Shown here: one piece after another, positions 3,097 through 64,000 of the stretch
Position numbering within the stretch: position 1 is the stretch's first letter
How the letters are laid out: every line of letters starts with the position of its first letter
From: Sipunculus nudus
Taxonomy: Eukaryota; Annelida; Sipuncula; Golfingiida; Sipunculidae
Direction of reading: 5' to 3'
DNA length: 64,000 bases
Assembly: GCA_026874595.1 (NCBI GenBank)
Contig: CM049310.1
Span: forward strand, 37,773,558-37,837,557
Program-made: the position numbers and the translations under genes
Notes under the pieces: generated by a model
The model's database searches: none
What the model saw: the letters and a program-made list of their open reading frames with translations, nothing else
What the model was told of the DNA's origin: nothing

Positions 3097-3141
3097 TTAA
3101 AATCCGCTGGAGCAGGTGTCGTCGGCAATCACAATATAGAG
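3097..3141 (-). CDS. possible last exon of the secreted-protein gene
   Basis: The acceptor is CATGTCGTTTCAG, followed by 14 codons (LYIVIADDTCSSGF) and TAA at 3099-3097, phase 0 as required by exon 5. An ATTAAA polyadenylation-signal variant follows. The exon is short and could be a chance match; the true last exon could lie elsewhere or beyond the window start. Confidence 0.38.
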   Translation of the reverse strand, partial: LYIVIADDTCSSGF

Positions 3142-3972
3142 CTGAAACGACATGGAACAATATTTAACATTATCTACTTGATCGTTGTCCTCATTTACTC
3201 AGCATGCGAGTCAAAGACTCGATCTTTCCTATGTTTCATCAACGGTGTTGCTCTCTGCACATCACATAAAAAGATCACATTTTTTTATTTTTATAGATAG
3301 GAGTACTAGGTGTTTCATATTACATCTTTTTACTGGAAGTTTTCACAAGCCATTTGAAAGGCCTAGAAAAGATTATTCGGATATGTTGATCAAACTACTG
3401 GGAGCTTTTAAGATCTGGAAAAATATGTTTCACAACTTTAAGGTATTTTTATAAATGTTTATAAGAGTTGGATCTCAATATCTGGTATAATGGGACTACA
3501 TGAGTATTTTCAGATCCTTAAAAGTACCTTAAGATCAATTTACCAGATCTGTTAATAAACCTACTTGAGGGGTTTTTGTCCGATCTTGTAATAATGCTAA
3601 TAGATAATGTTTGAGATATGTTTACAGGATAACAACAAGGTTTTTTTAATCTGTTGACAGGACCAATAAAATATTTTAAGATCTCTTAACAAGACGATAT
3701 TTTGTTGAGAACTGTCCATTGGTGTTTTAGCTATGCTAGCAGGACTACCAGGTGGGTCAGGGCGGTTGATAGGTCTATTCGATTTATTCATATATGCAGA
3801 TAGGTCTGCCGGATGATACTGGTAATACTGGTAATTCTTGAACTTTTCATATACCACTTTGTATCTAAAAGAATATATATATGTCAAATGGTCATCCAGC
3901 AACATTTTAGGTAATATTAAGGGAAACAAAACAATATGTAGGCTGGCCTCTGCCAAAGTTCTAAGACCTTTA

Positions 3973-4014
<42 letters not shown>

Positions 4015-7000
4015 CTGCCTGTGTGTGTGTGCAAGTGCAAACGTATGAAACTAGTCTTATGATTGTTTTTTAGTAATTTTGTATACGAATACACTTACTC
4101 CAGCGTAGGTATCCAGGAATCCTTGTTTGTTCACAGTCGCAGCACCTGATACGAATAGATACATGTAGAAAATAGATTTAGGGAGAATTCTCTATATGAT
4201 ATGATCTGAAATCTATAAAATCTCGTCAATGTTTATTACGATTAAATTCAAACACTCCGACGCCGTTGAACTAAATAAAAGGTATTTTATTACCTGGTTG
4301 AGACTAATATAATCTTTATTGGTAATTAGACAAATCCAGTTATATAAAGTCTGCAGCAGGAATTGAACTATTCCGCCGGTGATAGGCCTTGTGATAAACA
4401 TTTGCAACTCATACAATCTATTGAAATAATAATAAAACAATATTTATTGAACGTTTTTATGTGTGTAACCCTGCATTGCTGTGCGTGTCTATTTGTGTAT
4501 CCGTATATTTATGTAAAACTAATGTACACATGTGCAATTAACTGAATGGTGTGTGTCGCCAAGTTATGTTTCTAGAGTTCTCTGAAGAGAAACAGGCTAT
4601 AGGAAGCATGGTCCTGGACTTATTTACATGCCATTTTCACGATGACATAACCGACATTGACAGTTTAGTTAACAGGTTCATTAATGTTTGCATCACATTA
4701 CTTTCAGTATACTGTATATTTCCATGTTTGTTATCGTGCATTTATCTGCGTGTCCATGTGTGTATGGGTTTATTGATATGCGTGTCAAGGTGTGTACCCG
4801 TGCATTAATATGCGTGTCCATGTATGTTTGAGTGTATTAATGTGTAAAACAGTGTCCGTGTGTAAAACCTTGTAATAAAGTGCCTAATAATGGGTGTATC
4901 CTTGCATTGGTGTGCGTGTCTATGTGTGTAACTGTGTATAATTGTGCTTGCCCATGTGTGTATCCCTGCATTAACGTGCATGCCCAAGTGTGTAACCACT
5001 TATTAATGTGTCCATATGTGCATTCATGCATTCATGAGCTTGTCTATGCTTACGACATGAAATAATGTGCCTGTCCATGTATTTATTCGTATTTTCAGTG
5101 TATAAATGTAATCATAAAGCAAAATCATCAAACCGTTAGAAAGGAGCTCCCACGCGGCATCAATGTCAACCTGCTGAACAAAGTCCGGGTTATCACCCCC
5201 AAGAGCGGCAAAGGTGTCAAAGCATAAGTCCGCCTCAGAATCGCACATCTGGGTAACCTGTTTCCATGAACCGTTGAACGTAGCCCTGTCTACGTTGCCA
5301 TCTGCAAAGGAAATTTTTTATTGCAAGAAAAACTTTTAAAAATCAAAATTAATAGCCATAATGAAATAATACATCATTATAAAACTTAACCGAAATAGTA
5401 TATTTCTTTTCTCGGAAAATAATCTTGGAGATATAATTTAAAATAAATTTAAATTAATTAGAGAGATTTAAGATAATTTCTATCAACCTTTGATACTATT
5501 TAAATGGTTTAAATGTCCTTTCTACTGACCGGCATTCTTAATGCCATCGAATGCTGCTTGAAGGTTAGCTTTGGTCAATGTGGCTTTATCGACAGATACG
5601 GAGCAGAAAGCACGGCACCCTGTCCGAGTCTCACGGTCTGATACTGCATCACAGTTAGCACAGTCGAACCTGAAGGAGAAAACTATATTCGAAAACCCAA
5701 ATAATAGATGTATATGTTATTAATATTTATATATCCATAAATAAGGAATAAAGCAGGCAGAACAGGAAACACCAAGACTTTATTGCAAGGACTACATCAA
5801 TGGTAAATAGACAAGAGATAAAAAAAAAGAATTAAAAAAAGAGAAATAAAGGACATGGGAAAAGCTACTACACAGCAGAAGAAGGTGAATCTACAAACCG
5901 TACATACAAATAGTTTAGATTTTAAGAAAAGACACGGAGAGTTAAGAGTACCAGATGAGGGTGGGGAAGTTACGATTAGAGAAGAATCAGAAAACAGAAA
6001 ACCCGGAGAATAAAGACTACTAGTAGATATGACTGTAATAGGGAGACAATGTAGTTAAGATAACTAGAGAGGAAGGTAGCAAATATAACTGAATATCACT
6101 GAAGGATGATTTCAAAGTTTGTCTTAGAGAGTCAATTGAAAGAATGCACATAGATATTACTCAAATAATTGATTCAAAATTTGCCGAGTTGAACAATCGT
6201 ATAGACATCGAAATCGGTATCCTGACAAGGAGAATCGATGACTTAGATAGCAGAATGTCTGTGATAGAAAAATCCGCGCACAAGATAGGAAACAAGCCGT
6301 TTGATCCTGATGTCACTGTGGTAGCTAGTAGAGTGGTGCAAAATGATAATGAAGACCCTAAAAGTCTTGCACAGAGAATTATTCAGGAAGGTGTTGGTCT
6401 GGATGATATACCTGTGGTTAGGGCACTTATACTCGGCTCTAGAAATGGAACACCGGGTTTACTTAAAATTGAGCTAGCAAGTGAAGGTGACAAAATAAAA
6501 GTTCTGCGCAATAAACAGAATCTCGAAAACTCTGGTCTTTATAAACGTGTGTTTCTGAAGTCCTCCCAGACGCATGCCGAACGGCTAATCCAGCTCAACT
6601 TTAGAACAATTCTGAGCGAACTTCCAAATGGTGGCCAGTACAGAATAACCGGTAATGGTAAGCTGGTTCATGCTGGTACACTGGAAAATCAACATCATGG
6701 AACCACTGGGTATCGGGGACAAGGTGATAATAACAAAACAATAGACAAGCAGATATTACAAAGGGTCCCAGTACGGTCGCAAAGCCAGATGTCTACAGCT
6801 GGCTCTCAAGGGATGCCTAGTATGAAAGCATTCGCGCCCTCGGATCAGAGTGCCGTGATGCACGCTCACCCTACCGGAGTCAACATCCCTTCGTTACCGC
6901 CACCTCATTCTTTGTTAACCACCGGACTTACTATAGCCCAGGGCCCTCCGCTGGTCAGTGGATCCAAACTGACCACCCCCGCACCGACAAACCTCCAAGC

Positions 7001-10000
7001 GACAACTACCCCTCAGGTGTTTGTGCCCAGCTGTGCCACGATCCCTGTACATAACTATTAGGAGAATACCCAACTCTCGTGTGACCAGGCCGATTTGCCC
7101 AGGTTGTGTTTGAATTGTGAACGGATGGACTACGAACAATGCAAAATTAAGGAGCAAAAGTCTGCTGAAATTGAACATTGATATTATATGTATATGTGAA
7201 ACTCATTTAAAAAATAACGATACTATTGAACTTGATCATTATGTTTGGTATGGCCACAATCGAAATATGCTCCATGTAAACGCGAAAAAAGGTTCAGGTG
7301 GAGTAGGTATATTTGTTCGACGAGACCTACATGTAACATTTAATTTTCAGATAGTTGACAGGACCACAGACGGTATATTAGGGATACAGTTAGTACATAG
7401 ATTCACAGACTATCATATTGTTGTTTATGTTTGTTATCTTCCACCTTAACAGTCACCGTGGGGCAGGGATAGTGATTCTTTTTTCGCTCATCTAACCCAG
7501 GCAGTTTACTCTGGTTCTAATGTTGACCATGTCTTTATACTTGGAGATTTTAATGCTCGTTTAGGTAAACTACAAGACACTATTCCTGAGGTGGAAAATT
7601 TAGAACCAAGAGAAATTTTAGATGAAACTCGTTATCTTCATGGTGAAAGCCTGATCGAATTCCTTAAAGAAAATATGCTTTGTGTACTTAATGATAGAAT
7701 AGACAGACAAAGGAAAGATTTCACCTCAGTCACCGGTAGGGGAAAATCGGTAGTTGATTATATAATAACTGGGCATGATACCCTCGAAAAATGTACTGGT
7801 TTCAGGATTCTTCATGGTATTGACGTCCTTGATGAGTTTAACCTACAAAGTATGATCGAGGGACATTGTAAAGTACCAGACCATGCGATACTCACTGTTT
7901 CAGTCAGATTAACACACAGCACTGACTTTGTTTCTTTTAACACTGGAACGGAAATTTATCGTAGCATGCAACTTGAGGCACCGAACTGCCCTATGCCTGC
8001 TTCAAATCATGCTTCCTGTATCAATTTCAACGACATCCGAAAAAGTATTTTAAACAATGAAACTTTTGTCAACAAAGCTCAGGCTTTCTTTGAACATAAT
8101 CGTGACCATTATGAGAATGTTGAAATAGACCTGTGTTACAGACCGTTTGCCCTCCAAATCGAATAGGGCACGGGACAAGTGTGGGTCTAGTAAGTGGAAA
8201 ATAAGTGTGAAGCCGTCTTGGAACGATAAACTTGCAGAGCCCTGGGTTTATATGCGGAACAAAGAACATAATTTGAAGAATTATGTAAGAAAAGATTTAC
8301 ATAGTATTGTCCTAAGATAAGAATTTACTCAGGCCAGGCGTCGTTTTGATAAAATGTTAAGGTGTAAAGAAAGAAGTTACTGCAGAAAAATAAAATGGCT
8401 GAAATTGAGAATGTGGCAAAAACAAATCAAAAACAATTTTGGCGTTTGGTCAATCGTTGGGTTCCCAAAAAAGGTCCAGGATACCACTATCCGTTAGAAA
8501 TAACGGTGTTCTGGTGTATAACTTGACGACTGTAAGGAACTATTGGGGAAATAATTCTTTAAATTATACCAACAGACTGAGCCATCAGATATGGTTAAAC
8601 GCTTTCATGAAAACATAAATTACATTATTTTAAGCGAAGAAGATAAAATGAGGCTCCCTCACTATGAAAGTAATATTATGCTGAACTGTGATATTTCTTT
8701 TCATGAAATAGAATCCATCGTTAAACACCTAAAAAATAGGAAAAGTGTTGGATACGATTCTATACCAAACGAAGTTCTAAGAAGTCACAATGTCATGTTA
8801 ATAATGTATAAACTATTTACTCTTTGTTTCAACAAAGGTACGGTGCCTGCCTGTTGGAATAAATCACTTATTGCCCCTATCTTGAAAAAAAGGGAAGGAT
8901 CCCCATGAGCCTCTGAGAGACAGAGGCATCTGATTGCTATCCTGTGTAGGGAAAGTTTATAGCGCATTAATTGAACGACGAATATCCTCGTATTGTGATT
9001 CTTTGGGGTTAATAGCTGACGAGCAAACTGGGTTTCGAAGGGGTCGGTCATGTGTTGAACACATTTTTATTCTTACAAGCATTGTGACCAATTACATTAA
9101 TATGAGCAAAGATGTATTTGTAGCCCTGATCGACATGGAAAAGGCCTTGACAAAATAAATAAAGACCTCCTCCTTTACCGGTTGTTAGAGCAAAAAAAAA
9201 TGATGGTAAACTATATTACGCATTGAATTCTATGTATGAGAATAACAATGCACAGGTTAGAAATACTCCGGATCTGCTCACGGACGAATTTGCAGTCTGT
9301 TCTGGTTTACGCCAGGGTGATCCACTGTCACCTACAATATTTAATATATATCTGAATGAGTTGGTACGAGTTATCAATTCGCTCAACATGGGGATTACTT
9401 GTGGCGTTACTAAAATAAGTATATTACTGTACGCTGACGACATTGCTTTGGTGGCACCGACTGCCAGTGCCCTACAATGTATGCTCTCGTACTTAGACTC
9501 GTGGTGTTAGTTATGGCAACTATATCCGAATCCCATTAAAAGTAATGTTATCCATTTCCGTGATCGTAAAAAATCGCTTCCTCCGTCCAAATTTAATTTA
9601 AACGGGTCGAATTTAAAAGTTTTCAAGGAGTATAAATATTTAAGATTTTATCTTTCGGAGCATATGGATTATAAAAAAGGAATTATGTTTTATCAGACGC
9701 TGGTTCAAGAGCACTTGGAAATATAATTTCAAAATTTAAATATTTCAAAAATGTTTCTTATTATTCTTATACTAAACTTTATCACAGTGCCGTAGTACCA
9801 GTGCTTGATTATGCTTGCGAGGTATGGGGTCAATGTAAATCCCTGACCGTTGACAAAGTTCAGAACAAGGCTATAAGGTATTTTCTAGGAGTTCATAAAT
9901 TATGCCCCATTCTTGGTTTAACTGGGGATATGGGCTCGATCCCCAGTTTAGAAAGGCGCCAGATGAAAATACTGAAACTTTGGAATGAGCTCATATTAAT

Positions 10001-11986
10001 GGACGAAGGAAGGCTTGTAAAACAAATTTTCAACTGGGACCGGGAGTTAAGATATAACATTGGGCAGCTAGAGTAGAAGAAATTCTAGATATAGCAAATA
10101 TGTCGCATATTGTTGCGAGAATTCTACGAATCTAAGTGGCTAGAAGAAATTAAACTAAAGCCAAAGCTAAGAACATATGCATTACTAAAATCTTCATTCG
10201 GTACCGAACCTTATGTCATTCATTATTTAACGCGAGAAAAGATATCCTTAATGGCACAGCTTAGATGTGGAATCTTACCGTTAGAAATTGAAGTTGAGAG
10301 GTTTAAAAATATTCGCAATCACAGGTAAATTTAGAAAATTAAAACCCGAGGAAAGAATATGCAACATGTGTGAGGACAATTCAGTTGAGGATGAAATCCA
10401 TTTCATATGCTCCTGTCCAAAATATGAGGAAATTAGAGAGGAACTTTACAAATCTTTTCTTAAAAGTGAAACCGAGTTGTTAGGATTATCTCCTAAAAGT
10501 GAATTTATATACCTTTTTCAAAACTGTGTTAAAGAAATCAGTGACTTTGTAGCCAAAGCATGGGAGATAAGAAAGAACTGTTTGTACGCCTGTACTACCA
10601 TTATCGACTAGAGTACTGAGTGTCATATAAACCCCTGCGAGGGTTGGGTACTATAAGCAGACATTTACTGTACTTCATCTTGTATTATTGTACATGACAC
10701 TATAATAAATACACTCATTCATATAAGTGTTAAACGGAGACAGAGTAGACAAGGCTCGTAGAGAAACACAGGATATTTAAGACTGCTAGCGTAAGGCACG
10801 AGAGTTAAGATAGCTAGAAGAAGAAAAGTTAGTTAACACTGTTAGAGGAAGACAGGAGAGTTTAGACTGTTTGAGGAAGGCAGGAGAGTTTAGACTGCTA
10901 GAGGAAGGCAGGAGAGTAAAGACTGCTAGAGGAAGGCAGGAGAGTTAAGATTGCTTGAGGAAGGCAGGCGAGTTAAGGCCACTAGAAAATGACAGGTTAG
11001 TTCCTGTTAGGGGAAGACAGTAGATCTAAGACCATTAGAAGAAGGTATCACATATAACTGTTAGATGAAGACAGGTTAGTTAAGACTGCTAGCGTAAGGC
11101 ACGAGAGTTAAGATAGCTAGAGAAGACAGGTTAGTTAACACTGTACGAGGAAGACGGGAGATTACGACTGCTAGAGGAAGACAGGAGAGTTAACATTGTT
11201 AGAGGAAGACAGGAAAGTTTAGACTGCTAGAGGAAGGCAGGAGAGTTAAGAATGCTAGAGGAAGGCAGGAGAGTTAAGACTGCTAGCGTAAGGCACGAGA
11301 GATAAAGATAGCTAGAGGAAGACAGGTTAGTTAACACTGTTAGAGAAAGACAGGAGAGTTAAGACTGTTGGAGGAAGGCAGGAGAGTTTAGACTGCTAGA
11401 GGAAGGCAGCAGAGTTAGGACCACAAGAGGATGACAGAAGAGTTAAAACTGCTAGAGGAAGGCAGGAGCACTAGAAGAAGGTACCATATATAACTGTTAA
11501 AGTAAAACAGGGTAGTCAAGATTGCTAGCGTAAGGAACAAGAGTTACAAATGCTAGAGGAAGAAATGAGAGTGTAGACTGCTAGAGGAAGGCAGGGGAAT
11601 TAAGTCAACAAGAGAAAGTCAGAAATAAGCTAGAATATCTTAAGGAAGTAACATCATTCATTAAGGTTCGCAACAGACGCAGACCACAGAAAGACTGAAA
11701 TGTGAGGCCACCAGAGAGATGCAGAGTTAAACTAAGCGCGTTGTAGTATAAGTAACCGTTATTTTACATAAGTGGACGTTTATCGAATGTTTGCTGAAAC
11801 AATGATTATACTCCTTGCTCTCCATATTAAACTGAAATATGTATATAGCATTAAGAATTTGGGAAAAAATTAATTTATGACTATTTAGTAGTACTGCTGA
11901 TAAGAACATTATCAAAAATCTCTTTCTTACGGATCTTGGGCGGCAGCGAGCGCGAGGAGGCAGAGGAAGATGGCGGTACGTTCCAT
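3097..11986 (-). CDS. secreted cysteine-containing protein with degenerate EF-hand-like segments (split gene)
   Basis: Joined coding exons: 11986-11931, 5669-5530, 5301-5134, 4145-4099 and, less surely, 3141-3097. The translation has about 151 residues. Residues 1-17 form a typical signal peptide (MERTAIFLCLLALAAA, then Gln-Asp-Pro). Next come DCANC and GCRAFC cysteine pairs, a helix-like segment ending in NADGNVDRATF, a segment with MCDSEADLC, and a second helix-loop-helix-like stretch with NGAATVNKQGFLDTYAG. The two loops resemble EF-hands that have lost some calcium ligands. Every intron is GT-AG and the phases match (2, 1, 1, 0), which is hard to get by chance. The product is probably secreted and may bind calcium weakly or not at all. 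I do not recognise a named family. Intron 2 is about 6.3 kb and carries a LINE. Confidence 0.68.
3142..4098. other. intron 5 region with TA microsatellite
   Basis: It contains a (TA)n run at about 3976-4012 and CTGTTAACAGG-like short repeats at about 3480-3780. A 165-residue minus-strand frame here is largely the translated TA run plus low-complexity sequence and is not called a gene. Confidence 0.45.
4099..4145 (-). CDS. exon 5: second helix-loop-helix-like segment
   Basis: The acceptor is ATTCGTATCAG and the donor a strong GTAAGTG. The 47 bases complete a glycine and encode AATVNKQGFLDTYAG, ending in phase 0. Small, but in the correct frame and position. Confidence 0.55.
4440..5090 (+). 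repeat. degenerate GT-rich tandem repeat
   Basis: Words such as GTGTGTAACCCTGCATT, GCGTGTCCATGTGTGTAT and their variants recur every 30-40 bases at 4450-4530 and 4735-5065. The overlapping short open frames on both strands come from this repeat. It lies in intron 4 of the minus-strand gene. Confidence 0.65.
5134..5301 (-). CDS. exon 4: EF-hand-like segment
   Basis: The acceptor is TTTCCTTTGCAG and the donor is a weaker GTTTGA. The exon is 168 bases, phase 1 at both ends. It begins by completing an aspartate, giving the junction NADGNVDRATF. It then encodes MCDSEADLCFDTFAALGG and VDIDAAWELLSN. Read without splicing it would stop at about 5024, but the phase match to exon 5 favours splicing. 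Confidence 0.65.
5530..5669 (-). CDS. exon 3: cysteine-pair region
   Basis: The acceptor has a good pyrimidine tract (TCTCCTTCAG) and the donor is GTCAGT. The exon is 140 bases: one base completing the split proline, 46 codons and one base left over. It encodes FDCANCDAVSD, GCRAFC and a helix-like LTKANLQAAFDGIKNA. Confidence 0.68.
5800..6091 (+). repeat. left part of the GA-rich tandem array
   Basis: Purine-rich units with GAGAGTTAAGA, AAGATAACTAGAGAGGAAGG and GGTAGCAAATATAACTG match the array to the right of the LINE (10721-11640). The LINE therefore split one array. The first 100 bases are A-rich and more degenerate. Confidence 0.6.
6083..6091 (+). repeat. target-site duplication, left copy (LINE 1)
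   Basis: ATATAACTG at the left LINE edge pairs with ATATAAGTG at 10721-10729 (one mismatch). An undisturbed copy of the array at about 11,054 reads CATATAACTGTTAGA, which shows the pre-insertion order. Confidence 0.5.
6144..7061 (+). CDS. LINE ORF1 protein (coiled coil plus RNA-binding-like core)
   Basis: 305 residues, still open from ATG to TAG. Residues 1-45 look like a coiled coil (repeated Ile/Leu heptads with Arg and Asp). Residues about 74-175 form the compact conserved core, including SLAQRIIQEGVGLDD, ALILGSRNGTPGLLKIEL, KVLRNKQNL, KRVFLKSSQTHAERLIQLNF and YRITGNGKLV. The rest is Pro/Ser/Thr-rich and probably disordered. In related LINEs ORF1 coats the element RNA. It is followed after 55 bases by ORF2 in another frame. 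It could in principle still be translated, but its partner ORF2 is dead. Confidence 0.75.
   Translation: MHIDITQIIDSKFAELNNRIDIEIGILTRRIDDLDSRMSVIEKSAHKIGNKPFDPDVTVVASRVVQNDNEDPKSLAQRIIQEGVGLDDIPVVRALILGSRNGTPGLLKIELASEGDKIKVLRNKQNLENSGLYKRVFLKSSQTHAERLIQLNFRTILSELPNGGQYRITGNGKLVHAGTLENQHHGTTGYRGQGDNNKTIDKQILQRVPVRSQSQMSTAGSQGMPSMKAFAPSDQSAVMHAHPTGVNIPSLPPPHSLLTTGLTIAQGPPLVSGSKLTTPAPTNLQATTTPQVFVPSCATIPVHNY
7117..10611 (+). pseudogene. LINE ORF2 (endonuclease-reverse transcriptase), inactivated
   Basis: Pieces in several frames read as one ORF2. 7117-8166: AP-type endonuclease with ICETHL, GSGGVGIFVRR, GDFNAR, GKSVVDYII and PDHAILTVSV, interrupted by TAA at 7447-7449. 8591-9158: reverse transcriptase start with NRKSVGYDSIPNEVL, ADEQTGFRRGRSC and LIDMEKA, where a lost base shifts the frame before TGACAAA. 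9223-9510: GLRQGDPLSPTIFNIYLNEL and the intact catalytic LLYADDIAL. 9801-10611: LDYACEVWG and a C-terminal zinc-knuckle-like CNMC...EDEIHFICSCPKY. There are at least two in-frame stops and several frameshifts. No ATG precedes the NGWTTNN start, so the original start is unclear. Not functional. Confidence 0.82.
10721..11640 (+). repeat. GA-rich tandem array, 28-bp period
   Basis: The unit is close to GACTGCTAGAGGAAGGCAGG plus AGAGTTAA. GAGGAAGG recurs at 10873, 10901, 10929 and 10957, exactly 28 apart. Variant units (GCTAGCGTAAGGCACGAG; GGTACCATATATAACTG) recur at wider spacing, so there is higher-order structure. It lies in intron 2 of the minus-strand gene, giving a CT-rich strand in the transcript. 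Confidence 0.8.
11641..11930. other. intron 2, start-proximal part
   Basis: No element recognised. Plain AT-rich intron between the tandem array and the donor at 11930. Confidence 0.4.
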
Positions 11987-11995
11987 TTCTGGTGT
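11931..11995 (-). CDS. exon 2: start codon and signal peptide
   Basis: The acceptor TTTTACAG is followed by nine UTR bases, then ATG at 11986-11984. Eighteen codons encode the signal peptide and Gln-Asp, and the exon ends with CC before a GTAAGA donor (phase 2). The donor's leftover CC joins the first G of exon 3 to give proline. Confidence 0.7.
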
Positions 11996-12377
11996 CTGTA
12001 AAATAAGAAAACTAGAAATAAACATGTAGCTGAGCATGCATGGTTCACGTTTAACAATGTTTAACACAACGATCCTTTTATAAATCATATCAGCATGCGT
12101 TGAATGGAAATGATTGCATGATGATTTTGATAAAAAAAAGTCTCCTCTAACCTCTTTTGTTTTTACAGTATCATAAAATATCAGCTACAAAATCACTTTT
12201 AATATTTTCATACCATACCACGGTTTATAATAGCAACATGTGATAAATGTCAAATGAATGTATATAAAACTGTGATGAGGGATTTTCACCACCCCACATC
12301 AGATCTAATATATCGAATTATAATAATATCCAACTCTGTTACGTTTCTTATAATTATAATAGATTATTATAATTTAC
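11996..12377. other. intron 1 of the secreted-protein gene
   Basis: A 382-base intron in the 5' UTR, AT-rich, bounded on the minus strand by GTAAAT and TTTTACAG. It has AT-rich palindromic stretches near 12,305-12,375. No exon seen. Confidence 0.45.
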
Positions 12378-12424
12378 CTTGAGTAAATTCTCGGTGCTGG
12401 ACGTTGGTAGGTTCTTCGACTTTG
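12378..12424 (-). other. non-coding first exon (5' UTR) of the secreted-protein gene
   Basis: On the minus strand the transcript would start about 30 bases after a TATA box, at a TCCAAA initiator-like site. It then runs about 47 bases to CTCAAG followed by a GTAAAT donor. The next acceptor (TTTTACAG) opens the exon that carries the start codon. The start site is inferred from spacing only. Confidence 0.5.
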
Positions 12425-12460
12425 GAGCGGTAATTGTTCGGGAAACCTTATATAGGGGTG
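12424..12460 (-). promoter_or_regulatory. core promoter with TATA box
   Basis: TATATAAG lies at 12447-12454 on the minus strand inside CCCCTATATAAGG. An initiator-like TCCAAA sits about 30 bases downstream, then a splice donor. The spacing is textbook for a Pol II TATA promoter and fits the downstream signal-peptide exon. Confidence 0.55.
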
Positions 12461-14225: not shown

Positions 14226-15080
14226 CAGTGATTTAGTCGAGTGCACATCATCCAAACCCGAGTCGAAGTCCGAGTACATACCACTCTAGTCCAAGTCCGA
14301 GTCCAGACCACTCTAGACCAAGTCCGAGCCAGGCCACTCGAGTCCAAGTCCGAGTCCAGGCCACTTGAGGCCTTGTCCGAGTCCAGGCTACTCGAGTCCA
14401 AATCCGGGTCCAGGCAACTTGAGTCCAAATTCGAGTCCAGGCCACTCGAGTCCTAGTCCGAGCCAGGCCACTCGAGTCCAAGTCCGAGTCCAGACCACTC
14501 TAGACCAAGTCCGAGCCAGGCCACTCGAGTCCAAGTCCGAGTCCAGGCCACTTGAGGCCTAGTCCAAGTCCAGGCTACTCGAGTCCAAGTCCTTGTCCAG
14601 GCCACTCGAGTCCTAGTCCGAGCCAGGCCACTCGAGTCCTACTCCGAGCCAGGCCAGTCGAGTCCAAGTCCTTGTCCAGGCAACTCGAGTCCAAGTTCGA
14701 GTCCAGGCCACTCGAGTCCTAGTCCGAGCCAGGCCACTCGAGTCCAAGTCCTTGTCCAGGCAACTCGAGTCCAAGTTCGAGTCCAGGCCACACGAGTCCT
14801 AGTCCGAGCCAGGCCACTCGAGTCCAAGTCCTTGTCCAGGCAACTCGAGTCCAAGTTCGAGTCCAGGCCACTCGAGTCCTAGTCCGAGCCAGGCCACTCG
14901 AGTCCAAGTCCTTGTCCAGGCAACTCGAGTCCAAGTTCGAGTCCAGGCCACTCGAGTCCTAGTCCGAGTCAAGGTCACTCGAGTCGAGGTCCGATTCTTT
15001 GAGTTTCGAGTCCATGTAGGTCCACCTTTTCCAGTCCATGTCATTTGAAACTGATTCAAAGTCCAAAACCGAGTCCAATA
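14226..15080. repeat. satellite array with 80-bp higher-order unit
   Basis: About 850 bases built from 26-27-bp subunits of the type CTCGAGTCCAAGTCCGAG plus TCCAGGCCA. In the right half three subunits form an exact 80-bp higher-order unit: CAACTCGAGTCCAAGTTCGA recurs at 14681, 14761, 14841 and 14921. The left half is more irregular and the right edge decays at about 14,960-15,080. Nearly every subunit has the palindrome CTCGAG. Short open frames on both strands (Trp-Thr-Arg or Leu-Glu-Ser repeats) are by-products. Confidence 0.88.
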
Positions 15081-34189: not shown

Positions 34190-36175
34190 TGGTTTAATAC
34201 TTTTTAGCTCCCAAATATTTTTTCCTAAGTTCTGCATACATTGGACATTCTAATATGAAATGGATCTCATCCTCTGTAATGTTGTATCCGTGATTTAAGC
34301 AGTACATACATATTCTTTCTTCTATGTTAAGATTTTGATGTCTGCCTGTTTCTATGGCTAATTTGTGATTAGAGCATCTAAGTTTAGCTAATGCACATCT
34401 GTGATTTTTATTTGGAACACAGACAAGATATTTTTATAACGTTAACATAGATTTAAAAACACCATATGAGTACAATTTATTACAGGAGTTAATGTCATTT
34501 TGCCAATCTTCAACTTCCATATCTGTGAGTCTCTGTCTAATACCAGAAAAAAAACATGATCTCATCTCCTATATGTTGTGCCATCCATACATAGCCATAA
34601 CCTGCTTGAAATAATAATGATCTTACACCACTGACCCAGTTATTTTTTCCATTATTATCTAAATCAAATAAACATGAATATATATGTTTTGGGAATCTGT
34701 TTGTATCCATATGTAATAGTCTTATCCAGTATTCCAGGCATTTCAAAGAGTATTTAACAAATAGTGGTAATCTACCACATTCTCATAAGGCAGCTGCATT
34801 AGGTGTACTTGCACTTACTTTAAGAATATACTTGCAAAATTTATACTGTACTCTTTCTAAAATCATATATTTTGAATAACCCCACAATTCACAGCCATAT
34901 AATAATATAGGTATCACCATGCTATCAAAAAGATAAAAAGTTGTTTAACATTTAAATTAGCACATTTCCTATAGAAAGCTTTTATAACACATAATGCTTT
35001 GTTAGCTTGCATAATTTGTTGCTGATGTGTTTTTGTCCATGACAATTTTGTTGTGAGGAAAATACCAAGATATTTGTAATTATTTACCACTTCTAACTTT
35101 TTGCCTTGGAAATACCAGTTTTCATTCTTTCGTAGTGGGCCGCCTCTTCTGAACACCATGACTTTTGTTTTTTCCAAATTCACTTTCATACAATATTTAA
35201 CACAAAATTGCTGAAGCTTCTCTATCTGCTTTTGTAGTCTGCCGACAGTATCTCCAAAATTCACGACATCATCAGCAAACATTAAAGTAGTTATATTTGG
35301 AAGGTTCTCATTAACATATACACCTTTACAGTCAGAACTGTCTAATATTTGTATATATTCATTGATAAATAGAGAAAAAAGTAAAGGACTGACCATACAG
35401 CCATGTCTCATCCCTACTGAACATTGAAAGTACTCTGTAAGCCCACCTTCCGATAATACACATGACTTCATATTTGTATATAATGATTGCAAAGCCCTTA
35501 AAATATTTCCATTAATACCATGCTTTATCAATACATTCCATAATATATTATGTTGCACTGAATCGAAAGCCTTAGAAAAATCGACATACAAACAATAAAA
35601 TCTGCCTCTTTGTTTTGTTATATATTTTTGGACCATGGCTTGTAAAATAAAAATATTATCGACAGTACAGTACCCTTTCCTATACCCTGCTTGTGCTTCT
35701 GACATCAAATTATTACTCTCAACATAATCTACTAATCTACTGTATAAGATTTTTGTCAAAATTTTCCCAGTTATATTTAGTAATGAAATACCTCTATAGT
35801 TACCTGGATTATTAATTGAACCTTTCTTGTGGAGAGGAATTATAATAGCTTTACACCACTCATCAGGAAAAACTCCAGAATGTAAAATTTTGTTAAACAA
35901 AGATACCAATAAAGGCTGCAGAACTGGATAGTATGATTGTATAATTTCCAAAGATATTCCATATGGACCTGGTGATTTCCCTTTTTGCATCTCATTCAAC
36001 GCTTGTATTATTTCATCTGTAAGTATAGGTTTGTTGAAAGTAGGTTTTGCAAAGTGTTCAATGTTTATGGTAATGTCATCATTTTGTAATTGGTGATCAT
36101 TTTCAGTTTCATTTACACTGCTCATAAACAGATCTTTGAAGTAATCGAACCATTGCTTAGCATAAACTTAACGGA
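34190..36175 (-). mobile_element. 5'-truncated LINE (reverse transcriptase to C-terminus)
   Basis: About 2 kb on the minus strand. It starts abruptly near 36,170 within ORF2, upstream of the reverse transcriptase, and ends beyond a C-terminal CCHC-like segment (ICMYC...EDEIHFILECPMY, about 34,225-34,320). The first 403 residues are still open, and later frames carry stops and shifts. The C-terminal EDEIHFI...CP motif matches the LINE at 6092-10,720, so both belong to related groups, but the reverse transcriptases differ clearly. The exact 3' end and target-site duplications were not found. Confidence 0.75.
34914..36125 (-). pseudogene. LINE reverse transcriptase fragment, 403 codons open
   Basis: Domains in order: GKSPGPYGI (residues about 48-57; normally GKSPGPDGI, so one conserved Asp is lost), NYRGISLLN (about 109-117), EAQAGYRKGYCTVDNIF (about 143-159), catalytic motif A YVDFSKAFDSV (Asp182), RHGCMVSPLLFSLFINEY (about 240-257), motif C FADD (283-286) and CMKVNLEKTKVMVF, NYKYLGIFL. 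The reading frame also continues upstream of the first Met (KQWFDYFKDLF), so that Met is not the original start. Both catalytic aspartate motifs are present, but the protein lacks its endonuclease and C-terminus. Confidence 0.75.
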
Positions 36176-59465: not shown

Positions 59466-62400
59466 ACTAAGGCCTCAGTTCCAAGTGGTCCGCTTGCTCT
59501 GTATAGAGAAATAAGTTGTTCGTGGCCAGGACTAGGTCATAGTGGTCCGCTTGTTCTGTGTAGAGAGATGACTTGTTCGTGGTCAAGATCAGGTCTTGGT
59601 GGTGCGCTTGTCTTATCCAAACTCCTGTATGGAGAGATAATTTGTTCGTGGTCAGAATCAGATCTTGGTTGCCCGCTTGTCTCACACAAAATCCTGTTGA
59701 GATAAGTTGTTCGGGTCAGGATCAAGTTCTGGTGGTACGCTGGTCTTACAAAAGATCCTTTTTGGAGAGTTGATAAGTTGTTCGGGTCAGGATCAGGTCC
59801 CGGTGGTGCGCTTGTCTTACCCAAACTCCTGAATGGAGAGATTAGTAGTTCGTGGTCAGGATCAGATCCTGGTTGCCGACTTGTCTCACGCAAAATCCTG
59901 TTTAGGGAGATTAGTTGTTCGTGGTCAGGTTCAGGTCCTGGTGGTACGCTTGTCTTACCAAAGATTTCTTTTGGAGAGTGATACGTTGTTCGGGTCAGGA
60001 TCAGGTCCTGGTGGTGCGCTTGTCTTACCAAAACTCCTGTATGGAGAGATAATTGGTTCGTGGTCAGAATCAGATATGGTTGCCCGCTTGTCTAACACAA
60101 ACTCCTGTTTAGAGTGATATGTTCTGTTTCGAGTGATAAGTTGTTCGGGTCAGGATCAGGTCCTGGTTTTCCGCTTATCTCACGCAAAATCCTGTTTAGA
60201 GTGATAAAATGTTCGGGTCAGGATCAGGTTCTGGTTGTGTGCTTGTCTTACCCAAACTCCTGTATGGAGAGATAATTTGTTCGTGGTCAGAATCAGATCT
60301 TGGTTGCCCGCTTGTCTCACACAAAATCCTGTTTAGAGTTATAAGGAGTTCGTGGTCAGGATCAGGTCCTGGTGGTACGCTTGTCTTACCAAATATCCTT
60401 TTTGGAGAGTGATAAGTTGTTCGGGTCAGGATCAGGTCCTGGTGGTGCGCTTTTCTTACCCAAACTCCTGTATGGAGAGATAAGTAGTTAGTGGTCAGGA
60501 TCAGATCCTGGTTGTCCGCTTAACTCACGCAAAATCCTGTTTAGAGTGATAAGTTATTCGGGTAAGGATCAGGTCCTGGTTTTCCGCTTTTCTCATACAA
60601 AATCCTGTTTAGAGTGATAAGTTGTTCGGGTCAGGATCAGGTCCCGGTGGTGCGCTTGTCTTACCCAAACTCTGTATGGAGATACAATTGGTTCGTGGTC
60701 AGAATCAGATCTTGGTTGCCCGCTTGTCTCACGCAAAATCCTGTTTAGAGAGATTAGTTGTTCGTGGTCAGGTTCATGTCCTGGTGGTACGCTTGTCTTA
60801 CCAAATATCCTTTTTGGAGAGTGATAAATTGTTCAGGTCAGGATCAGGTCCTGGTGGTGCGCTTTTCTTACCCAAACTGCTGTATGGAGAGATAAGTAGT
60901 AAATGGTCAGGATCAGATCCTGGTTGTCCGCTTGACTCACGCAAAATTCTGTTTCGAGTGATAAGTTGTTCGGGTCAGGATCAGGTCCTGGTTTTCCGCT
61001 TTTCTCATACAAAATCCTGTTTAGAGTGATAAGTTTGTTCAGGTCAGGATCAGGTCCTGGTGGTACGCTTGTCTTTCCCAAACTCTGTATGGAGAGATAA
61101 TTCGTTCGTGGTCAGAATCAGATCTTGGTTGCCCGCTTGTCTAACGCAAAATCCTGTTTAGAGAGATTAGATTTCGTGGTCAGGTTCAGGTCCTAGTGGT
61201 ACGCTTGTCTTACCAAAGATTTCTTTTGGAGAGTGGTAAGTTGTTCGGGTCAGGATCAGGACCTGGTGGTGCGCTTGTCTTACCCAAACTCCTAAATGGA
61301 GAAATAAGTAGTTAGTGGTCAGGATCGGATCCTAGTTGTCCGCTTATCTCACGCAAAGTCCTGTTTGGAGTGATAAAATGTTCGGGTCAGGATCAGGTCC
61401 TGGTTGTGCGCTTGTCTTACCCAAACTCCTGTATGGAGAGATAATTGGTTCGTGGTCAGAATCAGATCTTGGTTGCCCGCTTGTCTCACACAAACTCCTG
61501 TTTAGAGTGATATGTTGTTCGGGTCAGGATCAGGTCCTGGTGGTGCGCTTGTCTTACCCAAACGCCTGAATGGAGAGATAATTGGTTCGTGGTCAGTATC
61601 GGATCCTGGTTGTCCGCTTGACTCACGCAAGATCCTGTTTAGAGTGATAAGTTGTTCGGGTCAGAATCAGGTCCTGGTTTTCCGCTTTTCTCATACAAAA
61701 TCCTGTTTAGAGTGATAAGTTGTTCGGGTGAGGATCAGGTCCTGGTGGTGCGCTTGTCTTACCCAAACTCTGTATGGAGAGATAATTGGTTCGTGGTCAG
61801 ACTCAGATCTTGGTTGCCCGCTTGTCTCACGCAAAATCCTGTTTAGAGAGATTTGTTGTTCGTTGTCAGGTTCATGTCCTGGTGGTACGCTTGTCTTACC
61901 AACTATCCTTTTTGGAGAGTGATAAGTTGTTCGGGTCAGGATCAGGTCCTGGTGGTGCGCTTTTCTTACCCAAACTCCTCTATGGAGAGGTAATTGGTTC
62001 GTGGTCAGAATCAGATCTTGGTTGCCCGCTTGTCTCACACAAACTCCTGTTTAGAGTGATATGTTGTTCGGGTCAGGATCAGGTCCTGGTGGTGCGCTTG
62101 TCTTACCCAAACTCAGTATGGAGAGATAATTGGTTCGTGGTCAGAATCAGATCTTGGTTGCCCGCTTGCCTCACGCAAAATCCTGTTAAGAGAGATTAGT
62201 TGTTCGTGGACAGGTTCAGGTCCCGGTGGTACGCTTGTCTTACCAGAGATTTCTTTTGGAGAGTGAAAAGTTGTTTGGGTCAGGATCAGGTCCTGGTGGT
62301 GCGCTTGTCTTACCCAAACTCCTAAATGGAGAAATAAGTAGTTAGTGGTCAGGATCGGATCCTGGTTGTCAGCTTATCTCACGCAAAATCCTGTTTAGAG

Positions 62401-64000
62401 TGATAAAATGTTCGGGTCAGGATCAGGTCCTGGTTGTGCTCTTGTCTTACCCAAACCCCTGTATGGAGATATAATTTCTTCGTGGTCAGAATCAGATCTT
62501 GAATGCCCGCTTGTCTCACACAAAATCCTGTTTCGAGTTATAAGGAGTTTGTGGTCAGGATCAGGTCCTGGTGGTTCGCTTGTCTTACCAAAGATCCTTT
62601 TTGGAGAGTGATAAGTTGTTCGGGTCAGGATCAGGTCCTGGTGGTGCGCTTTTCTTACCCAAACTCCTATATGGAGAGATAAGTAGTTAGTGGTCAGGAT
62701 CAGATCCTGGTTCTCCGCTTGACTCACGCAAAATCCTGCTTAGAGTGATAAGTTGTTCGGGTAAGGATCAGGTCCTGGTTTTCCGCTTTTCTCATACAAA
62801 ATCCTGTTTAGAGTGATAAGTTGTTCGTGTCAGGATCAGGTCCTGGTGGTGCGCTTGTCTTACCCAAACTCTGTATGGAGAGACAATTGGTTCGTGGTCA
62901 GAATCAGATCTTGGTTGCCCGTTTGTCTCACGCAAAATCCTGTTTAGAGAGATTAGTTGTTCGTGGTCAGGTTCATGTCCTGGTGGTACGCTTGTCTTAC
63001 CAAAGATCCTTTTTGGAGAGTGATAAGTTGTTCGGGTTAGGATCAGGTCCTAGTTTCCCGCTTTTCTCATACAAAATCCTGTTTAGAGTGATAAGTTGTT
63101 CGGGTGAGGATCATGTCCTGGTGGTGCGCTTGTCTTACCCAAACTCTGTAAGGAGAGATAATTGGTTCGTGGTCAGAATCAGATCTTGGTTGCCCGCTTG
63201 TCTCACGCAAAATCCTGTTTAGAGAGATTAGTTGTTCGTGGTCAGGTTCAGGTCCTGGTGGTACGCTTGTCTTACCAAAGATTTGTTTTGGAGAGTGATA
63301 AGTTGTTCGGGTCAGGATCAGGTCCTGGTGGTGCGCTTGTCTTACCCATACTCCTAAATGGAGAAATAAGAAGTTAGTGGTCAGGATCGGATCCTGGTTG
63401 TCCGCTTATCTCACGCAAAATCCTGTTTAGAGTGATAAAATGTTCGGGTCAGGATCAGGTCCTGGTTGTGCGCTTGTCTTACCCAAACTCCTGTATGGAG
63501 AGATAATTTGTTCGTGGTCAGAATCAGATCTTGTTTGCCCGCTTGTCTAACACAAAATCCTGTTTAGAGTTATAAGGAGTTCGTGGTCAGGATCAGGTCC
63601 TGGTGGTACGCTTGTCTTACCAAAGATCCTTTTTGGAGAGTGATAAGTTGTTCGGGTCAGGATCAGGTCCTGGTGGTGCGCTTGTCTTACCCAAACTCTG
63701 TATGGAGAGATAATTGGTTCGTGGTCAGAATCAGGTCTTGATTGCCCGCTTGTCTCACGCAAAATCCTGTTTAGAGAGATTTGTTGTTCGTGGTCAGGTT
63801 CATGTCCTGGTGGTACGCTTGTCTTACCAAAGATCCTTTTTGGAGAGTGTTAAGTTGTTCGGGTCAGGATCAGGTCCTGGTGGTGCGCTTTTCTTACCCA
63901 AACTCCTGTATGGAGAGATAAGTAGTAAGTGGTCAGGATCAGATCTTGGTTGTCCGCTTGATTCACTCAAAATTCTGTATAGAGTGATAAGTTGTTCGGG
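59466..64000. repeat. satellite array, about 69-bp monomer, runs off the window
   Basis: About 4.5 kb, roughly 66 monomers averaging about 69 bp. A typical monomer runs TTGTTCGGGTCAGGATCAGG, TCCTGGTGGTGCGCTTGTC, TTACCCAAACTCCTG, TATGGAGAGATAA. Alternating variants have TCGTGGTCAGAATCAGATCT with GCCCGCTTGTCTCACGCAAA, or GGTACGCTTGTCTTACCAAA with TTTTTGGAGAGTGATAA. Left-edge copies (59,466-59,700) are more diverged, and the array is cut by the window end. A period near a multiple of three keeps many short frames open on both strands; indels break them and none has a consistent start. Confidence 0.93.

Follow-up and report, generated by a model that had tools for sequence, protein, structure and literature searches.

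The window that we have analysed, i.e. a stretch of 64,000 nucleotides at positions 37,773,558-37,837,557 of contig C5 in a 1.43-Gb animal assembly of 153 contigs, carries on its minus strand, between positions 12,460 and 3,097, a spliced gene for a small protein of 151 amino acids (the labels C and L denote contigs of this assembly and loci fetched from it, respectively). An earlier note, made from the letters of this DNA, had proposed at this place a hidden gene of five or six exons for a secreted protein; every exon that was described there has been found, the joined frame is open over 151 codons, and the structure is supported by paralogous copies elsewhere in the assembly.

Architecture of the window gene

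The five coding exons (Table 1) join in one open frame: the coding parts of exons 2-6 measure 56, 140, 168, 47 and 45 bases, and the joined coding sequence (CDS) has 456 nucleotides, with its sole stop codon at the end. The introns of the gene are all of the GT-AG type, with phases 2, 1, 1 and 0. The multi-exon structure that had been proposed thus stands, with the exact count now being six exons, one non-coding and five coding; the statements that no exon is longer than 168 bases (the longest coding exon has exactly this length) and that GT-AG introns and matching phases lead to an open join are likewise borne out, and homologues that preserve the exon junctions, whose absence had been named as a reason to give the gene up, exist in the form of the paralogues described below.

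A 10-mer with the TATA box, CCTATATAAG, is common to the window gene and to the sister copies L009, L010 and L013, the last of which is about 75% identical to the window around this element. The promoter and exon 1 of the window gene can be aligned to L009 and L010, and also to L013, which is more distant; the donor context of exon 1 is kept in the first two, while one base differs in L013. Exon 1 would start about 30 bases past the TATA box, as judged from the position of the latter. The signal-peptide-like peptide of exon 2 is identical in the coding sequences of L009 and L010. At the opposite end of the gene, of the 12 models checked, 11 have ATTAAA or AATAAA 18-33 bases past the stop codon; the exception is L025, a model that lacks a true last exon.

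Exons 2 and 3 are separated in the window by an intron of 6,261 bases, compared to 1,570 in L009 and 1,496 in L010. The surplus consists of a decayed non-LTR (non-long terminal repeat) element of the LINE (long interspersed nuclear element) type, which occupies about half of the 9-kb span of the gene and where Pfam models Exo_endo_phos, Exo_endo_phos_2 and RVT_1 have matches on three of the seven open reading frame pieces. The element is bordered by an imperfect 9-bp repeat, CA[C/G]TTATAT, which has been read by eye in comparison with the empty site of L010; this one-mismatch duplication does not appear in the list of exact repeats of at least eight bases. No stretch that matches the LINE is found in L009, L010 or L013, and therefore its insertion probably occurred after these copies split from the window gene. 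Repeats related to the 28-bp minisatellite of the same intron are present in sister copies.

Table 1. Positions of the features of the gene in the window (first eleven rows) and of the clusters of related copies in the assembly (last six rows).
Feature	Position	Strand	Remarks
TATA box	12447..12454	-	TATATAAG inside CCCTATATAAGG
Exon 1, non-coding	12378..12424	-	End at 12378, donor GTAAAT; start approximate
Exon 2	11931..11995	-	9 bases of untranslated region, ATG at 11986; coding part 11986-11931, signal-peptide-like MERTAIFLCLLALAAAQDP
28-bp minisatellite array	10769..11468		Between exons 2 and 3
Decayed LINE-type non-LTR element, about 4.6 kb	6092..10720	+	Same intron as the minisatellite; pieces of endonuclease and reverse transcriptase spread over several frames
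Exon 3	5530..5669	-	CxxC...CxxxC region and first half of the first EF-hand-like unit
Exon 4	5134..5301	-	Loop A, central helices, degenerate loop B
Exon 5	4099..4145	-	C-terminal EF-hand-like loop
Exon 6	3097..3141	-	C-terminal end, conserved Cys, stop TAA
ATTAAA	3073..3078	-	Probable polyadenylation signal; starts 18 bases past the stop
Gene, exons and promoter	3097..12460	-	
Cluster	C15, 42.52-42.61 Mb		At least 15 copies, tandem array
Cluster	C15, 53.13-53.18 Mb		At least 6 copies
Cluster	C5, 81.99-82.04 Mb		At least 5 copies
Cluster	C5, 92.40-92.45 Mb		At least 4 copies
Cluster	C2, 26.03-26.05 Mb		At least 3 copies
Cluster	C5, 37.73-37.78 Mb		At least 3 copies, window gene included

A family of paralogous copies under purifying selection

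The comparison of the 151-residue protein with the assembly has yielded 51 exon matches at E <=0.001, and at least 36 related copies, obtained by counting the exon-3-type matches by hand, are distributed over six clusters (Table 1); these match counts are lower bounds, since only the best candidates were scored. In the tandem array on C15 (42.52-42.61 Mb), hereafter the C15 array, the copies are often about 6 kb apart, and the CDS of the six modelled copies differ at 0-11 sites, those of L019_851 and L019_6470 being identical. In three clusters, the one that includes the window gene, C15:53.13-53.18 and C5:81.99-82.04, at least two of the genes have close counterparts, which lie 30-35 kb apart in each; these clusters look as if they had arisen through whole-cluster copying between chromosomes, or through duplication in the assembly.

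Gene models have been built from 20 fetched genomic stretches. In a tblastn search with the exon peptides, where no splice constraints were applied and the listing limit for small exons was E 2, the five exons occur in order in L009, L010, L014, L015 and L016, with exon 5 of L014-L016 being weak by itself (E 1.4). A chaining script, which required GT-AG borders and the phases, was started from 28 exon-3 anchors including that of the window, i.e. from 27 distinct copies, given that L018_21 is L017_7021 again (one gene, two anchors); a complete five-exon chain that passes the score limits has been obtained in 14 of the 27, window included, and the resulting proteins are 34-99% identical to that of the window copy. 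The GT-AG borders (112 of 112) and the shared phases of these models hold by construction of the search, which imposed neither the open reading across the joins nor the similarity that extends to each junction; this similarity is thus independent evidence.

One of the 14 models, L010, has an in-frame stop. The remaining copies fall short in several ways: exon 2 is deleted in L013 and was not found in L011 or L012, both of which have in-frame stops in exon 4; because of breakage or incompleteness, L011, both copies of L012, L013 and one copy of L028 have been excluded; L017_151, L018_21 and L019_9093 are truncated by the ends of their loci; in L024, L025, L026, L027 and the other copy of L028, exons were missing or disrupted in the chaining search; L021, skipped at first, was completed later.

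The shortness of the exons, and nothing else, would favour the explanation that open frames whose borders resemble splice sites have been strung together by chance, to which we assign a negligible probability: it is refuted by the paralogues, where the chain is conserved, and the scores of the small exons and the deficit of nonsynonymous changes also speak against it. Over the 14 models, the minimum scores of exons 2, 5 and 6 are 25.0, 20.2 and 39.6, respectively, and the best scores reached in 28 reversed or reverse-complemented spaces, of which those of array copies are not independent of each other, are 18.8, 20.4 and 19.8; the null reaches the real minimum for exon 5 alone, in one of the 28 spaces.

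Purifying selection is seen in all six close pairs that have been tested (Nei-Gojobori counts, binomial tests), where nonsynonymous changes lie below the neutral expectation and the ratio of nonsynonymous to synonymous rates (dN/dS) is 0.035-0.23. Between the window copy and L010, one of seven changes is nonsynonymous (dN/dS 0.05, P 0.0008), and between the window copy and L009, seven of 17 (dN/dS 0.19, P 0.0013); the other pairs are L014 and L015 (2 of 11, dN/dS 0.06), L014 and L016 (2 of 16, dN/dS 0.035, P 3e-8), L022 and L023 (about 40 of 79, dN/dS 0.225) and L017 and L019 (4 of 9, dN/dS 0.23, P 0.03). No gaps occur in the 456 exon bases of the window copy when aligned with either L009 or L010, and the three introns compared have 19 gaps in 2,140 aligned bases (L009) and 9 in 2,154 (L010).

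Some close pairs show no strong constraint, which counts against the reading preferred below: dN/dS is 0.32 between L009 and L010 (L010 is broken), 0.34 for both L017 and L018 against L020_6605, and 0.58 for L020_849 against L020_6605 (3 changes), and three pairs of array copies have two nonsynonymous changes and no synonymous change. In addition, the expression of any single copy is not certain, because the sister copies include broken ones (L010, L011, L012 and L013). The same lesions, i.e. the stop of L010, the deletion of exon 2 in L013 and the stops of L011 and L012, lend some weight to the reading of the window copy as a recently silenced pseudogene, open through its youth, with a LINE in its intron. 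We find this reading improbable: the CDS, the splice sites, the TATA box and the polyadenylation signal of the window copy are free of lesions, large introns are tolerated, and the low shares of nonsynonymous changes against L010 and L009 speak for constraint, though part of it predates the split of the copies.

The coding exons of the 14 modelled copies are at most 177 bases long, and for this reason a family of at least 36 copies can escape both open-frame scans and Pfam, and yet be found by reading the raw sequence.

The encoded protein and its possible EF-hand ancestry

The N-terminus of the window protein, read by eye, resembles a signal peptide and suggests secretion; the mature part would comprise about 134 residues and is acidic (pI ~4.05). 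The alignment of eight members has 27 invariant columns, including six cysteines (C22, C25, C37, C41, C85 and C147), the first five of which stay invariant in an alignment of 11 members, two of them without the last exon; the six cysteines probably form three disulphides. For exon 4 alone, AlphaFold has returned three helices at a pLDDT of 59, a confidence that does not allow a fold search.

Neither the window protein nor any of the eight members scanned has a Pfam match that reaches the cut-off, and the window protein has no sequence match in the Protein Data Bank (PDB) up to E 10, in agreement with the earlier note, which had not recognised a named family. The family may be lineage-restricted, as that note had suggested, the animal DNA searched being that of this one assembly; homologues have not been found in the prokaryotic genome contigs searched. 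Two sets of matches have been set aside as chance: weak ones to NCBIfam (best E 0.0099), and a match of 12 residues to the Pfam model UBA_At5g58720, which stays below the cut-off both with the complete window protein (E 0.078) and with its first half (E 0.0062).

Kinship with EF-hand proteins is suggested, weakly, by enrichment and by no single significant match. When the family profile is compared with the PDB at E <=10, EF-hand proteins, recognised by name, take up 17 of 20 rows for alignment A1 and 15 of 18 for alignment A2 (which includes L024, L025 and L026 as incomplete proteins), led by KChIP4 and calexcitin; many of these rows repeat a few proteins as variants, above all KChIP1. A control profile made from the reversed mature parts of eight members, a set that differs from the 11 aligned members, has given no PDB rows.

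The pattern for the canonical 12-residue calcium loop, of the PROSITE PS00018 type, is matched once in six of the 14 models, all of them from the C15 array (6 of its 15 copies tested); the loop that fits exactly, DLNGNNLMERSEL, is expected in about 0.2-0.4% of shuffles, and by our reading, the array also has a near-fit loop, DPEGKGAVGKSEW. The loops of the array lie at residues 48-60, 67-79 and 126-138; the equivalent loops of the window protein are SVDKATLTKANL, NADGNVDRATF and NGAATVNKQGF, which have lost key acidic positions and of which none matches the pattern, while L009 keeps a glutamate in the last loop where the window protein has a glycine. The EF-hand-like loops of the earlier note are plausible as ancestry and are not canonical loops in the window copy itself; the proposed secreted-protein gene stands as to its TATA box, untranslated exon, signal-peptide exon and body exons, with secretion being judged from the N-terminus by eye.

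Weighing against an EF-hand derivation, the best E-value of the PDB profile rows is just 0.025; the best Pfam EF-hand match has E 0.0093 and 15.9 bits against a cut-off of 25.4, in the C15-array type only (below the cut-off, EF-hand_6 matches two of the eight members and EF-hand_1 and EF-hand_7 one each, while the window protein has no Pfam EF-hand match); hhalign with calmodulin gives a probability of 9%; and the N-terminal loops are about 19 residues apart, as opposed to about 36 in a loop pair of calmodulin. The odd loop spacing, the hhalign result and the absence of significant matches of the window protein in Pfam and the PDB would all fit a real gene with a different fold, namely a lineage-specific, all-helical secreted protein stabilised by cysteines, with loops that look like those of EF-hands solely through their content of D, N and G. 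We regard this as unlikely, given the share of EF-hand proteins among the profile rows, which drops to nothing with reversed sequences, and the exact pattern in six models of the C15 array.

The reading that we prefer, and consider fairly probable, is that of a tandemly expanded gene family of an animal, encoding a secreted protein derived from an EF-hand protein, with the window copy probably having no classical calcium binding. A TATA promoter, a non-coding first exon, one exon for the signal peptide and four small ones for the body would give rise to an acidic secreted protein, whose copies would have been made through tandem and segmental duplication. As for the fold, its most likely ancestor would be an EF-hand protein of compact form that binds calcium, and the helix-loop-helix units would span about residues 44-82 and 110-143; the protein would be exported, locked by three disulphides, and act outside the cell, in the extracellular fluid or in a matrix (mantle or shell, mucus or similar), as molluscan secreted EF-hand proteins do. 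While gene structure, family and purifying selection are direct observations, we infer secretion, disulphides, fold and site of action from the sequences. Members of the C15 group could be calcium binders; in the window group, binding via classical loops is improbable, and this group may act as a scaffold or through its surface acidity. Given that its loops are without the key ligands, the window protein is probably an acidic, disulphide-locked scaffold or a weak calcium binder.

More tentatively, this Pfam-invisible family may go back to an ancestral extracellular calcium sensor or buffer that was duplicated dozens of times, with most subfamilies losing their calcium sites and taking on a new extracellular role, e.g. 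as a matrix scaffold, a mucus component or an interface with the bacteria that are represented by contigs of this assembly. If the loss of the calcium ligands is true, the C15 array and the window group would form a before-and-after pair for the conversion of an EF-hand to an extracellular use that does not involve calcium.

Other features lie outside this gene. The window also contains a 417-codon reverse-transcriptase frame on the minus strand (34914-36167; Pfam RVT_1, E 2.6e-37), which probably belongs to a second non-LTR-type element, a 27-base minisatellite (14259-14994) of 27.6 copies with an 80-base higher-order unit, part of which is open as a repetitive frame, and a nested minisatellite (59556-64000) with periods of about 69, 137, 344 and 412 bases, which continues past the window end. 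Elsewhere in the assembly, contigs C60, C61, C62, C66, C72, C74, C75, C89 (two copies) and C123, and loci L029 and L032, are bacterial, and possibly belong to symbionts or associates of the host animal; nine COX1-family genes of nearly equal score, with frames of 577-578 amino acids, are located on bacterial contigs, among which the gene of L029 reads as aa3-like and has at most 58% identity to the best of its 80 relatives kept from GTDB genomes, and C123 carries a gene that reads as a cbb3-like CcoN.

Comparison with known EF-hand proteins

The best rows of the PDB profile comparison, at E >=0.025, belong to calexcitin and to EF-hand proteins of the KChIP type: the last EF-hand of calexcitin aligns with the C-terminal unit of the family, and KChIP4 with its N-terminal unit. 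Calexcitin and KChIP proteins are intracellular and are not known to have this signal peptide and cysteine pattern.

The literature search has led to SMP5 and to other EF-hand proteins of the mantle, none of which is tied to the family by sequence; the family may already be in print. The mantle of Pinctada fucata expresses PFMG1, EFCBP and the signal-peptide EF-hand genes 000262, 000493 and 002138 (PMC3120837); the likeness to the present family is that they encode EF-hand proteins of a mantle that forms shell, several with signal peptides, and the difference is that their EF-hand domains are recognisable. A protein without a named homologue, with a signal peptide and an EF-hand, is reported from a Perna shell proteome (PMC6641155).

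The closest description found concerns Hdh-SMP5 (GenBank ON803450.1) of the abalone Haliotis discus hannai, a small secreted acidic protein with a 16-residue signal peptide that has been aligned with bivalve relatives and has EF-hand loops at 36-48, 56-68 and 112-124 (PMC10741955). It differs from the present family in its length (134 versus 151-156 amino acids) and in having three PROSITE EF-hands, where the C15 array has a single one and the window copy lacks any; in that paper, cysteine is mentioned in a reference title alone. The family can be described as resembling molluscan SMP5, a likeness drawn from description and not from sequence, and membership is not claimed. The array comes near SMP5 in the arrangement of its loops, with spacings of 19 and 59 residues as against 20 and 56 in Hdh-SMP5, by the published positions, but the pattern is matched by a single loop of the array's three and by none in the window copy, and the signal peptide has been read by eye.

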